A DNA stretch of 56,979 bases from a virus. How positions within the stretch are numbered: position 1 is the first letter of the stretch; each line of letters begins with the position of its first letter. The position numbers were made by a program, and so were the translations under genes. Below, piece after piece: positions 3,301 through 53,358 of this stretch. The notes beneath the pieces are model-generated. The model was not told the DNA's origin and ran no database searches. It saw nothing but the letters and a program-made list of their open reading frames with translations. The stretch lies in the IMG/VR virus record IMGVR_UViG_3300042260_000461, positions 1 through 56,979 of that record; one strand, 5' to 3'.

Positions 3301-6300
3301 CCAGCCACGTACTCGCGGGCACCGCGCACCAGTTCAGCGACGAACAGGTCGGCGCGCTGCTGCTGGGTCAAACTGCCCTCAAGCAGATCGCTCAGTTTGT
3401 TGGCCAAGTTCTTGTAGCCATGCGCCAGCAACCAATCGCGCACCATGACCGTGACCTTGCGCCAGCCCTTGAGCTTGGCCAGTTGGGCGGTCGGGATGTC
3501 CACGATGGCCTCTTCCACAGCCTCGGCGGTGGACATCTTGTTGCCGCGCTTTTGGATCTCGAAGGCCGCCCGGCGCACGTTAGCGTTGTTGGCAGACACC
3601 AGGGCCATGGCGGTCTTGAGGCTGTCACCCAGCAAGGCGCGCAGGCCAAAGTGGGCGGCCTCATGCTCAAGCAGCACGTGCTCGGCGCGGGCCATGTCAG
3701 ACAGGCCCGATGCGAACAGGTACAGCCCGCCCTCGTGAAATGCGCCTTCCACGTCATCCCAGGCATCCTGGCGAATGATGTACTCGCGCAAGCCCTTGGG
3801 AGCCTTACTGGGGTCAGACAGCACCGTCACCTTGGGCATGTTGGGCATCGTTGCCTTAACGCCGCGCACCATGGCGTCCAGGTCATCGACGCTCACACCG
3901 CCGGACGCAGCGCCAGCGCCGCGAGACAGTCGGGTGTCCTCTGCGGGCTTGACCTCTGACGCCTCAGTGGCCATCCAGTCCTCAGCAGCACCGCCATTGG
4001 TGGAAACTGCCTTGGTGATTGCCTCGTCGGCATTGGTGGCCTGAACATCAAAGCCCAGGCCAGAGGCCTTGTTTTCCACGCGCCAGGTCTTGGGCTTGGA
4101 ATCAGAGGCGATCATGTCCTCCAGGTCGTTGGCCTCTTTCACCTTGTCGGCCAGCATGCCAGCCATGGGGAAAGGCGACTCCAAGCGGCTGGTCAGTGCA
4201 TCGATCTGAGCTTTGGCCTCGGTGATGCGCTCGCGCATCTTGGCGGGCAGCCTGGCCACATCTGACACGGCGTTTTGCGCACGCATGGCCACGCCAATGG
4301 GGCTGGTACCGGCATCCGCGATCAGCAAGATCGGGTCGGGCGTGCCCAGCATCACCTTGGTCATGAACTGGCCTGCAACGGTCTCGCCGCCAAACACCAC
4401 TGGAAAACCGGAGATCTCGCCAATGGTCATGGGCTTGGTCTCGCCCCTGGCGGTCAGGTCCTTGTACTTGGCGATCAGGGCCTCGGCCCAGTCGGCGCGC
4501 TCGGCCAGGGTCTTGCCCATGACCTTGGCGCGGAACTTGTCGCCCGACAGGTCCTGCACCAGGGCGGCCATCTTCTCGGCCTCGGGCATGCGCTTTTGGT
4601 TGAACTCCACCGTTGTGCGCGCCATGTCGTACTGGGACTTGAAGCGGGCGCGCTGGTCCTCGTGGGCGCGGTAAAGGCGCTGGAGCTTTTCGATCTCGGC
4701 GCGAGCCCCTGCCAGTTGCAGGATGCGCGGATCTTCGGCCACCATGGCAGCGGCCAGGTCGTACTGGCTTTGGCTGTCCAGGTCCTCCAACTCGCGCAGG
4801 TTCGCGTCACCGCTCAAGGCCTGGTCGATGAAGAACTGTTTGGATGCGAGCATCTTCCACATGTTCTCGTCGTAGGTGCCCTTGGCGGCGTAGGCGTACA
4901 GCTGCACCAGCGGGTTCTTGTTGCCCTGGCGCACGATGCGGCCCTCACGCTGCTCCAGGTCAGCCGGGTACCAAGGCGAATCCAGGTGAAACAGGGCCTT
5001 GAGGCGCTGCTGTGCGTTCACGCCCGTGCCCATGTTCTTGCTGGAGCCCACCAGCAGGCGCACCCGGCCAGCGTTCACGTCCTTGAACAGCTTGAGCTTG
5101 TCCGCCGACTTCTTGTAGTCGGACATAAAAGCCACCTGATTCATGGGCATGCCAGCATCGCGCAGGCGTTTTTCAAACCAGGCGCGGGCATTGAAGCCGC
5201 GATTGGCGGCCACACCCTCACCAAAGCCAAGGTCAGAAAACACCATCGTGGCCGCGCCCTTGTTGGGCTCGACGTTGCCCGCCTTGTCGCGGTACTCCAT
5301 GTCCTTGGTCTCAGTCAGGACACGGATCACGTCATCGATCATGCGGTTGAGCTTGGAGTCCGGGTCGCTGGGCAGCGATGGATCGATGAAACGCATGTCG
5401 ATGGCAGCCAGGCGGCCATCGCCAATGATGCGGATCATCGGGTCCGGATTGTTCGGCTCGTCCTTGGTTGGCTTCCAGGCGCGGGACTTCTCCACACGGG
5501 CGGAGAGGTCGGACTGGTACCCGTCATAGGCCCCGGTCTTGGGCGTGACGATGATCTTGCGAGATCCGTTCTCCACTTTCGGGCGCTTGTCGCCCAGCAA
5601 AGCGGCCAGGGTGTCCGAAGTCAGCACGTCCGCGAACTCGCGGAACATCTGGGTCAACTCGGGCACGTTCACGAACTTGCTGAACCGGGTCACAGGCTCG
5701 TACTTGCCAGCGGCGTTGGGCTCCAAAACCGTGCGCTCGCGCCCGAACATCGAGGCCCATGAATCGAAGTCCTCGATGCCGCGATCTTCCAAGGCCTGGC
5801 GGTCCATGAACTTTTGCACCGTGTACAACTCGGCCAGGGTGTTGGTCACGGGCGTGCCCGATGCCAGCACCAGCGAGCGGCCTGGGTTCTTTTGCTCCAG
5901 GTAGCGGGACTTCATGTACAGGTCAAAGGCGCGGGCAGAGCCTTGCGGGCTGATGCCCTTGACCTGGCGCGAAGTCGTGAAATCGAGCTTGCGGAACTCG
6001 TGGGCCTCGTCCACGTAGAGCATGTCCACGCCAAGTTCATCGAATCGGACGTTGGTGTCCTTGCCGGTCGATGCCATGGCAGCTTCCAGCTTTTGCTCCA
6101 TGTTCTCGATCTGCTTTTCGATCTGCTTGATGCGCGGGGACTTCTTGCCGCCCTTGCCATCCTCGGCCTCGGCCTCTTCCAGGGCAGCGCGCATGTAGTC
6201 CAGCTGCTCCTCGATCATCTTGCTTTTGAACTCGGGGTCCAGATCCAGCAGCTTGAAAGCGCTGTGCGTGATGACCACGCCATCGAGGTCAGACAGCGCC

Positions 6301-51547: not shown

Positions 51548-51868
51548 ATGAACCAAGAAAACACCCAGTCGCCCGAGTCCGCAGAACCAGCGGAAAAGAA
51601 GCGCCCAAACATCGCACTCACCCCGGTTGAATCCAACCAGGTCAAGGCCATTGGATACGACGAGGCCACCAAGACGCTGGCCGTGACGTTCACCCGTGGC
51701 GCTGGCGCGATCTATCACTACCCCGATGTGAGCAAAGAAACATTCGAGGCCTTCATCGGTGCCGAATCCATCGGCAAGTTCTTTGGCCAACACATCAAGC
51801 CCCTGGCGTTTGAGAAGTTCGCGCCCGAGCCCGTCATCGAAGCCGAACAGACCGAAGAAGCGGCGTAA
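51548..51868 (+). CDS. KTSC domain protein
   Basis: 106 residues. SNQVKAIGYDEATKTLAVTFTRGAGAIYHYPDVSKETFEAFIGAESIGKFFGQHIK is the KTSC domain (named for lysine tRNA synthetase C-terminal-like proteins). In phages it occurs in recombination operons, role unknown. Disordered N- and C-terminal acidic tails. Followed at once by the first RNA-like element. Confidence 0.8.
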   Translation: MNQENTQSPESAEPAEKKRPNIALTPVESNQVKAIGYDEATKTLAVTFTRGAGAIYHYPDVSKETFEAFIGAESIGKFFGQHIKPLAFEKFAPEPVIEAEQTEEAA

Positions 51869-51873
51869 CGAAT

Positions 51874-51936
51874 TGGCCGAAAGCGGATGCTTTTGGAGCG
51901 AATAGCGATCTACCAATGGACGCAGCGAGTAGGCCA
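51874..51936 (+). ncRNA. Structured RNA candidate, short copy
   Basis: Begins 6 nt after the KTSC stop. TGGCC (51874-51878) pairs with GGCCA (51932-51936). Next to this stem the strands read GAAA and GCAGCGAGTA, the same as in the long copy, and can form a loop-E (AGUA/GAA) motif. AAAGC/GCTTT and TTGG/CCAA give small hairpins, and CAATGGA is shared. It lies in the leader of the 121-residue gene. It may be a shortened relative of 52337-52474. Confidence 0.5.
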
Positions 51937-51962: not shown

Positions 51963-52328
51963 ATGCACGAAACCACCAACCGCCCCACCACAGCGCCAAC
52001 CGATGTCCCGGAGTTCATCACCGACTTGGACGGTGGGCAGTTTGAATTGCTGATGTCTCAGGCCTTGAGCGAATCCGCAGCCGCCGCCGTGGACTTTGGT
52101 CGAGTGGCCGAAGTCACCGTGAAATTCAAGATCGAGCAAATCATGGGCACCCACCAGGTGCGCATCCAGCACGACACCAAATTCACACGCCCAACATCGA
52201 TGGGCAAGAAGAGCGAAGAGACCAGCGGTGCGACCGTCCTGCACGTGGGCAAATATGGCCGCTTGACGCTGGCCCAGCCCAGCCTCTTGGACAAAGAGAA
52301 CCGCCAACAGTCGTTCCCCACCGCCTAA
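51963..52328 (+). CDS. Hypothetical protein between two RNA-like leaders
   Basis: 121 residues with AGGAG upstream. Contains LDGGQFELLMSQALSESAAAAVDFGRVAEVTVKFKIEQIMGTHQVRIQHDTKFTRPTSMGKKSEE, a beta-rich core after a helix, and a basic end. It resembles phage proteins of unknown function found with DUF2303; a nucleic-acid-binding role is plausible. Both its leader and the sequence after its stop are the RNA-like elements. Confidence 0.6.
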   Translation: MHETTNRPTTAPTDVPEFITDLDGGQFELLMSQALSESAAAAVDFGRVAEVTVKFKIEQIMGTHQVRIQHDTKFTRPTSMGKKSEETSGATVLHVGKYGRLTLAQPSLLDKENRQQSFPTA

Positions 52329-52336
52329 GCAATTAC

Positions 52337-52474
52337 GGGCCGAAAACTGTCCGGAAGTGAGAAGTCACACCAGGGCAGGCGAAAGCCGATGAAGTTCCGT
52401 CCATTGTCACAGTCAGCCCGAATGGGTCGAAGTCCCGAGAAGCGCAGCAATGGAGACAGGCAGCGAGTAGGCCC
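52337..52474 (+). ncRNA. Structured RNA candidate, long copy with three-way junction
   Basis: Paired by eye: closing stem GGGCC (52337-52341) / GGCCC (52470-52474); internal loop GAAAA against GCAGCGAGTA with loop-E arrangement; stem CTGTC (52347-52351) / GACAG (52455-52459); CGGAA (52352-52356) / TTCCG (52395-52399) enclosing hairpins GTGA-GAAG-TCAC and GGC-GAAA-GCC; TCCATTG (52400-52406) / CAATGGA (52448-52454) enclosing a GC-rich hairpin. The three central stems meet with no unpaired base. GNRA loop and loop-E exist only on this strand. Not a family I recognise. Confidence 0.6.
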
Positions 52475-52509: not shown

Positions 52510-53358
52510 ATGTTCGACAAAGAAGCAATTGAAGTCCTCCAGGATGGCGCATCCATCCTGCAAGCCAGTAACGCGATTTCGCATGCGTTTGAGGAAAGGG
52601 CTGTCGTAGCCCTGCCCGAGAAGTTCGACACCCGCGACCTGGAGCAGTACTTGCCCAACCGCCGCCGCGCTCGCGGCACCATGGCTACCAGCGCCGCCGA
52701 GGACTTTGCGGAATACGTCAAGGCCCACAAGGAAGAAGGCGCATGCGTGTTCGTCAGCCAGGACGCCATGAAGTCGGTGGCCGTGCTGAACCTGGGCACC
52801 CCGGACAAGCCTGGCCATGCCGACAACAAGGCCGCGCTGGTCCTGGAGAAGACATCGGCCTACACCAGCCTGCTCACGCACGCCAGCGGTCGCGCCATGA
52901 CCCAATCAGGCGTGGCCGAGTTCATCGAGGACTGGACGGCTCAGATCCAGTGCTTCAACGACGATGGCCCCATCGTGATCGCCCATGCCGTGGCCGCTGT
53001 GCGCAAGATGAGCATCGAGGCGATGCGCAAGGTCGAAAGCGCCGAGCAGAGCCTGAGCGCCAGCAAAAGCAGCTTTGAGCAAGTGTCGGCCACCAGCAAG
53101 GACCCGCTGCCCACGTTCATCCACTTCACCTGCGAGCCCTATCACGGTCTGGAGTCGCGCACGTTCGTCATGCGTCTGAGCGTCATCACCTCCAACGACA
53201 AGCCCTCGATCTCGCTGCGCATCATCAAGCTCGAAGAGCACCAGGAAGCCATGGCCAAAGAACTGGCCGAACTGACCCGCAAGGCGCTGCGCGAAAACCA
53301 GTACAGCGCAGCAAGCCTGATCGTCCCGGTCCTTCTGGGCGAGTACTCCAAGAACTGA
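52510..53358 (+). CDS. DUF2303 (YfdQ-like) protein
   Basis: 282 residues, AGGA before ATG 52510. The order ALPEKFDTRDLEQYLPNRRRARGTMATSAAEDFAEYVKAHKEEGACVFV - TSAYTSLLTHASGRAMTQSGVAEFIEDW - PLPTFIHFTCEPYHGLESRTFVMRLSVIT is the DUF2303 signature. Members sit in phage recombination operons; biochemical role unknown. Its leader carries the large RNA-like element, which may regulate it. Confidence 0.85.
   Translation: MFDKEAIEVLQDGASILQASNAISHAFEERAVVALPEKFDTRDLEQYLPNRRRARGTMATSAAEDFAEYVKAHKEEGACVFVSQDAMKSVAVLNLGTPDKPGHADNKAALVLEKTSAYTSLLTHASGRAMTQSGVAEFIEDWTAQIQCFNDDGPIVIAHAVAAVRKMSIEAMRKVESAEQSLSASKSSFEQVSATSKDPLPTFIHFTCEPYHGLESRTFVMRLSVITSNDKPSISLRIIKLEEHQEAMAKELAELTRKALRENQYSAASLIVPVLLGEYSKN

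Follow-up and report, generated by a model that had tools for sequence, protein, structure and literature searches.

In the window (the whole 56,979-nucleotide stretch of viral DNA that was analysed), the genes for a KTSC-domain protein, a phrog_204 protein and a DUF2303 protein are separated by two gaps, each holding an element that folds back on itself shortly past a stop codon (Table 1). The initial annotation singled out the element in the second gap, here called copy B, as an undescribed structured RNA. A repeat search found GCAGCGAGTAGGCC, from the 3′ part of copy B, again at 51922-51935, and the arrangement GGCC GAAA ... GCAGCGAGTA GGCC is repeated in the gap before copy B, where its position relative to the stop codon is the same. 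This upstream element, copy A, lies 463 bases upstream of copy B and had been overlooked, and it is the canonical member of the two. We conclude, with a probability of about 0.97, that the folded RNA family to which it belongs is real. The family is strongly conserved and previously undescribed.

Table 1. Positions of genes and RNA features around copies A and B (numbering of the window).
Feature	Position	Strand	Evidence
KTSC-domain gene, upstream of copy A	51551-51868	+	PF13619
Copy A, canonical member, P1 to P1′	51874-51936	+	Covariance model R1: 58.9 bits, E 1e-13
Copy A P1 5′ strand UGGCC, partner 51932-51936 GGCCA	51874-51878	+	Inner four pairs formed in 97-99% of 111 listed copies
Copy A 5′ box GAAA-GCG-GAUG	51879-51889	+	Near-invariant; GCG pairs with 51921-51923 CGC
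Copy A P2 domain CUUUUGG...CCAAUGG, one U-U mismatch	51890-51919	+	P2 covaries in the family
Copy A 3′ box A-C-GCAGCGAGUA, putative loop-E side AGUA	51920-51931	+	Near-invariant
Copy A P1 3′ strand GGCCA, then conserved flank CC	51932-51936	+	P1 pairing and flank conservation
phrog_204 gene, between copies A and B	51963-52328	+	phrog_204
Copy B, large putative divergent member without GCGGAUG segment	52337-52474	+	R1: 22.2 bits, E 8e-4; grammar scan
Copy B P1 5′ strand GGGCC, partner GGCCC 52470-52474	52337-52341	+	Pair probability 0.999
Copy B GAAAA internal-loop strand	52342-52346	+	Present
Copy B P2 5′ strand CUGUC, partner GACAG 52455-52459	52347-52351	+	Fits family P2 start CUG..CAG
Copy B arm 1, CGGAA 52352-52356 / UUCCG 52395-52399, two hairpins	52352-52399	+	Stems present
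Copy B hairpins of arm 1	52357-52368 (GAAG), 52378-52387 (GAAA)	+	Present
Copy B arm 2, UCCAUUG 52400-52406 / CAAUGGA 52448-52454	52400-52454	+	Stems present
Copy B 3′ box GCAGCGAGUA	52460-52469	+	Identical to family box
DUF2303 / phrog_210 gene, downstream of copy B	52510-53358	+	phrog_210

A family of folded RNAs

The pattern GGCCGAAAN{14,40}GCAGCGAGTAGGCC retrieved 33 stretches from IMG/VR, which have a longer core in common, GAAAGCGGATG ... GCAGCGAGTA, and at least 120 IMG/VR stretches match a two-box pattern in which the outer stem (P1) is left free. The layout of the family is P1 / GAAA-GCR-GAUG / P2 / (A)YGC-AGCGAGUA / P1′, or, written without divisions, P1 - GAAAGCRGAUG - P2 - (A)YGCAGCGAGUA - P1′. 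Rfam 15 has no match to the window at the gathering score, and none over the elements of the window region and of eight loci even with E values allowed up to 10, in agreement with the initial view that the RNA is undescribed; a search of the open literature found no description of the family.

The outer stems among the matches listed include GGGG/CCCC, GGCC/GGCC, GGGC/GCCC, AGCC/GGCT, TTGG/CCAA, TGAC/GTCA and others. In the covariation set, which comprises 111 distinct copies among the matches listed (some of them from the first pattern, which fixed GGCC), the inner four pairs of P1 are formed in 110, 110, 110 and 108 copies (97-99%), with pairing kept by way of GC, CG, AU, UA and GU. All five P1 pairs are altered on both sides in alignment A1, and over the whole structure this alignment contains 184 cells with two-sided changes compared with 76 in shuffles, none of 500 shuffles reaching 184; shifting the pairing partners abolishes the signal, and alignment A4 reproduces it. 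The proposal of a structured RNA is thus borne out by strong covariation at the level of the family. P2 (from CUG..CAG onward) covaries once the copies are grouped by linker type, and its first two pairs are present in 59 of 59 copies of the AC linker class. Within the core GCR pairs with YGC: a pair between positions 21 and 63 had been predicted beforehand, and all 24 distinct copies with A21 have U63 and none has C63, whereas U63 and C63 occur in 60 and 59 copies with G21, respectively (Fisher p 1e-6 against the A21 copies).

Both boxes are near-invariant in these copies, which were selected by pattern. The G of the putative loop-E is substituted in seven IMG/VR stretches (five distinct copies with at least three P1 pairs, all G to U), and G22 is replaced by A in eight distinct IMG/VR copies. 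With AGUA opposite GAA beside a helix and the G conserved, the internal loop has the sequence expected of a loop-E (bulged-G) motif; the resemblance was first pointed out next to the closing stem of copy B (GAA at 52342-52344 opposite AGTA at 52466-52469), where it is real, and it recurs throughout the family. Because G-U wobbles exceed A-C mismatches by 22 to 4 in P1, we take the sense strand to be the strand that folds. At the level of sequence the constant part comprises P1 and the putative loop-E (bulged-G) internal loop, followed by a helix of 3 bp and another internal loop, and the end domain P2 varies and is common to unrelated places. A coding role, or a readthrough or frameshift signal, was considered and rejected: the upstream frame is open in 63 of 122 cases and another frame also in 63, and the core lengths are spread 43/43/46 over the three values modulo 3.

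The P2 domains fall into 31 clusters of near-identical sequence, and in 55 of 73 pairs from the same cluster the flanks have no DNA similarity and P1 is often different. At many loci near-identical P2 domains are enclosed by P1 stems that differ and by flanking genes that are unrelated, and P2 seems to be an end module that is exchanged between elements. No antisense (immunity-type) target of P2 was found in its own genome beyond the level of shuffles. The P2 of one element (contig L154, 4083-4228, minus strand) contains GTGAGTTCGAATCTCAC, which resembles a tRNA T-arm; ARAGORN calls no tRNA in large P2 domains such as this one.

Copy B, a probable divergent relative

The five nested stems that were originally described for copy B are all present, those of CTGTC/GACAG, CGGAA/TTCCG and TCCATTG/CAATGGA do meet without an unpaired base, and the two hairpins with GAAG and GAAA loops are there as well (Table 1). 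Of 300 dinucleotide shuffles, one contains a seamless three-way junction as good as this. In the fold of lowest energy P1 is kept and the inside is different (-43.0 kcal/mol, versus -38.7 kcal/mol with the described stems enforced); the homologues decide in favour of P1 and the predicted GAA/AGUA internal loop. A pattern specific to copy B matched no IMG/VR contig, and the inner three-way junction found no homologue there.

Model R1 places the P1 of copy B on the inner GAAAGCCGATG, with a three-base insertion. We think that this register is wrong, since the outer P1 has perfect pairing, an 8-nt spacer from the stop codon and the conserved CC flank. A scan of about 1.5 Mb for the grammar of stop, P1, GAA...AGTA, P1′ and CC gave 80 places, as compared with 0-1 for permuted motifs, and five of the 80 are non-canonical: copy B, second elements in contigs L060 and L036, a deviant canonical copy in L151 and a likely chance match in L019. 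The second elements, at 3716-3839 (minus strand) in L060 and 1064-1137 in L036, are divergent, lie in tandem just upstream of the canonical copies and have P1-GAA...AGUA-P1′-ACC in common; R1 scores them at 19.1 and 18.3 bits, respectively. Because of the grammar scan and these scores we regard copy B, which lacks the full core, as a putative divergent second copy or relative of the family, and divergent companions of this kind as occurring in tandem with canonical members.

Copy B could instead be unrelated and fold by chance, its end being a duplicate of 23 bases of copy A, given that GCAGCGAGTAGGCC and its flank are common to both copies, that thermodynamic folding of the interval 52337-52474 gives no signal over shuffles (z -0.78) and that its inner part has no homologues in the IMG/VR pattern search. 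We consider this unlikely: a perfect P1, GAA/AGUA, the 8-nt stop-codon spacer and the CC flank occur together, permuted grammars yield next to nothing in the same 1.5 Mb, and similar second elements adjoin canonical copies in L060 and L036. Copy B is missing from the same gap, the DUF2303 leader, in five related loci (L026, L174, L177, L178 and L195), and for this reason the suggestion that it is a conserved cis-regulator of DUF2303 has to be given up. Nor is the family as a whole tied to that gene.

Intergenic hairpins with TTTCGGGG or TTTTACGGGG after the stop codon and a CCCCACC end, and with no boxes, were seen upstream of position 3532 (plus strand) in L044 and at reverse-strand position 3430 in L097. 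They may belong to another class of RNA that is built within an identical outer frame.

Distribution and genomic position

The carriers are mostly uncultured freshwater phages. Exact-pattern matches in 85,000 bacterial and archaeal genomes number 16, of which four have a paired P1 and an R1 score (in Limnohabitans, an uncultured beta proteobacterium, Pelomonas and Comamonas; L165, L163, L170 and L172); the other 12, mostly inside genes, look like chance. Within the Limnohabitans family 4 of 401 genomes have a match, and the hosts found are Burkholderiales. Among 50,697 phage records BLAST, which is weak for so short a query, found only two uncultured Manatee Spring genomes, both confirmed by R1, and plasmids gave no match. 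The RNA class is common in uncultured phage contigs and nearly missing from cultured phages and from bacterial genomes, and this scarcity explains why it was overlooked.

Whole-record searches of 40 virus records found one canonical copy in each (40 of 40), a figure that describes copy number and not prevalence since the records were picked as carriers; the only extra matches were copy B and two that are weak and partial (E values of 0.05 and 0.5). P1 starts 4-9 nt past the stop codon in 104 of 130 cases, with an AU-rich spacer between them, and 3′ of P1′ a conserved ACC is followed by U/A-rich bases. The tight spacing may reflect compact genomes together with a conserved 5′ flank. In several contigs (L039, L062, L088, L037 and similar) the next start codon is 7-11 nt past P1′ with no evident Shine-Dalgarno sequence, and there the element, or reinitiation, may drive translation of the next gene.

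Genes for ssDNA-binding proteins of three unrelated families precede the element far more often than they turn up among control genes. The upstream gene is of the DUF669 (10), SSB (8) or Enc34-type ssDNA-binding (6) family in 24 of 118 cases, with RecT accounting for 4 more; in a control set of 123 genes from the same contigs that do not adjoin the element, there is one Enc34 gene, and the families listed do not include DUF669 or SSB (at most one each), for a total of at most 3. For about three quarters of the upstream genes no role in binding ssDNA is recognised, and the KTSC gene before copy A is one of these. DNA polymerases, MazG pyrophosphatases, exonucleases and primases are among the genes downstream; the annotation of MW202710 runs from exonuclease through single strand binding protein, element and one NTP-PPase gene to convergent genes. 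In a few contigs Acb2/Tad1-type and Tad2-like anti-defence genes adjoin the element. A single-sequence BLAST comparison of 12 carrier records, partly incomplete, found no protein family common to all of them, a search that a diverged partner could escape.

Possible functions

The sequences show an element that folds on the sense strand, is noncoding and occurs once in each phage record; it lies between cistrons of replication/recombination operons, with little room to spare from the stop codon on one side to the next gene on the other. Our tentative proposal, which we hold at less than even odds, is that it works as an intercistronic element of the mRNA, by way of a conserved host factor that would recognise it. 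It would most likely set the 3′ end or the stability of the mRNA of the upstream cistron; an abundant early product such as ssDNA-binding protein would then be made in excess over the genes behind the element. That parts of one operon mRNA can decay at different rates is well established (PMC5927463). The bias in upstream genes relative to the controls is consistent with such an mRNA element, as are the single canonical copy in each of the 40 records, the short distance of P1 from the stop codon, the conserved ACC flank, the noncoding character with no readthrough, the gene order of MW202710 and the lack of a protein family common to the 12 carriers. Less easily accommodated are the roughly 20 conserved loop bases, which a plain stabilising hairpin does not need, the large share of upstream genes without a recognised ssDNA-binding role, and the placing of P1 inside the footprint of a terminating ribosome. 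Since no protein family is common to all 12 carrier records, a host partner is the simpler reading; the fixed place behind early genes and the absence of a detected common phage protein suggest that very different phages address one host machine alike.

It is possible, if doubtful, that the RNA instead acts in trans. It would then be excised from the early mRNA and bind or decoy an RNA-binding factor of the host, and P2 would be an exchangeable module that confers specificity. The presence of a single canonical copy in each record regardless of the neighbouring genes, the missing universal protein partner, the AU-rich flanks on both sides and the recurrence of P2 domains amid unrelated flanks would all fit, but the bias to one upstream gene type suggests a role in cis, and P2 has no antisense match elsewhere in its own genome. 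With similar reserve one can picture an RNA scaffold of phage origin, its core invariant and its ends exchangeable, that is present once per genome in freshwater phages unrelated to one another and serves to hijack or decoy a conserved factor of Burkholderiales with no phage protein partner. That the element is a self-cleaving ribozyme or an RNase substrate, at which the operon mRNA would be cut between its cistrons, is decidedly unlikely. Small ribozymes are built in this way, with about 20 conserved bases on the two sides of an internal loop and freely variable stems around it, and the element does sit between cistrons, but no Rfam ribozyme family matched. Equally improbable is a put-like antiterminator RNA acting on the host RNA polymerase of the early operon. 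The RNA-only nature, host-directed action, early operon and similar size would agree with it; the element is nonetheless one P1-P2 stem with internal loops between cistrons, unlike put, and in MW202710 just one gene follows before the convergent genes. We rank as least likely, and as very improbable, a signal at the DNA level, such as a single-strand origin or a primase hairpin in the replication module. A single-copy hairpin near replication genes invites that reading, yet the P1 wobbles are those of a folded sense strand, and the element does not coincide with an extreme of GC skew (mean distance 0.12; 0.125 expected by chance).

Comparison with known RNAs

In loop-E or sarcin-ricin (bulged-G) RNAs such as the glnA glutamine riboswitch, AGUA faces GAA by a helix; the present family has no Rfam match to any of them, and the rest of its core is unlike theirs. 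The int-alpA RNA (RF02996) is also a phage-associated structured RNA, of a separate Rfam family and at a separate position. One contig with a family member (L072) also carries an int-alpA RNA, at 205-274 on the minus strand (45 bits). The intercistronic stability elements of programmed operon decay likewise lie between cistrons of one operon, (PMC5927463), but they are not known to form a conserved sequence family with an invariant internal loop, unlike the new family.

Two structured RNA candidates of PMC2864571 invite closer comparison. The STAXI motif also occurs near ssDNA-binding-protein genes, but it consists of tandem pseudoknots repeated two to three times, whereas our family is without an Rfam match. 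The Burkholderiales-1 motif, which is not in the Rfam 10.1 list, comes from the same host order as that found here and could be identical; a difference is that carriers of the new family are nearly absent from bacterial genomes. We call the RNA class new. The put RNA of HK022 is about 70 nt long and has two adjacent stem-loops behind early promoters (PMC9378689); antiterminators of the put type bind RNA polymerase and suppress termination. The likeness is that both are phage-encoded RNAs of about 70 nt in an early operon, put acting on host machinery; put has two stem-loops and two copies per genome, whereas the family has one stem with two conserved internal loops, is intercistronic and occurs in one copy. 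The claim of novelty concerns the RNA class and does not extend to the principle of action.
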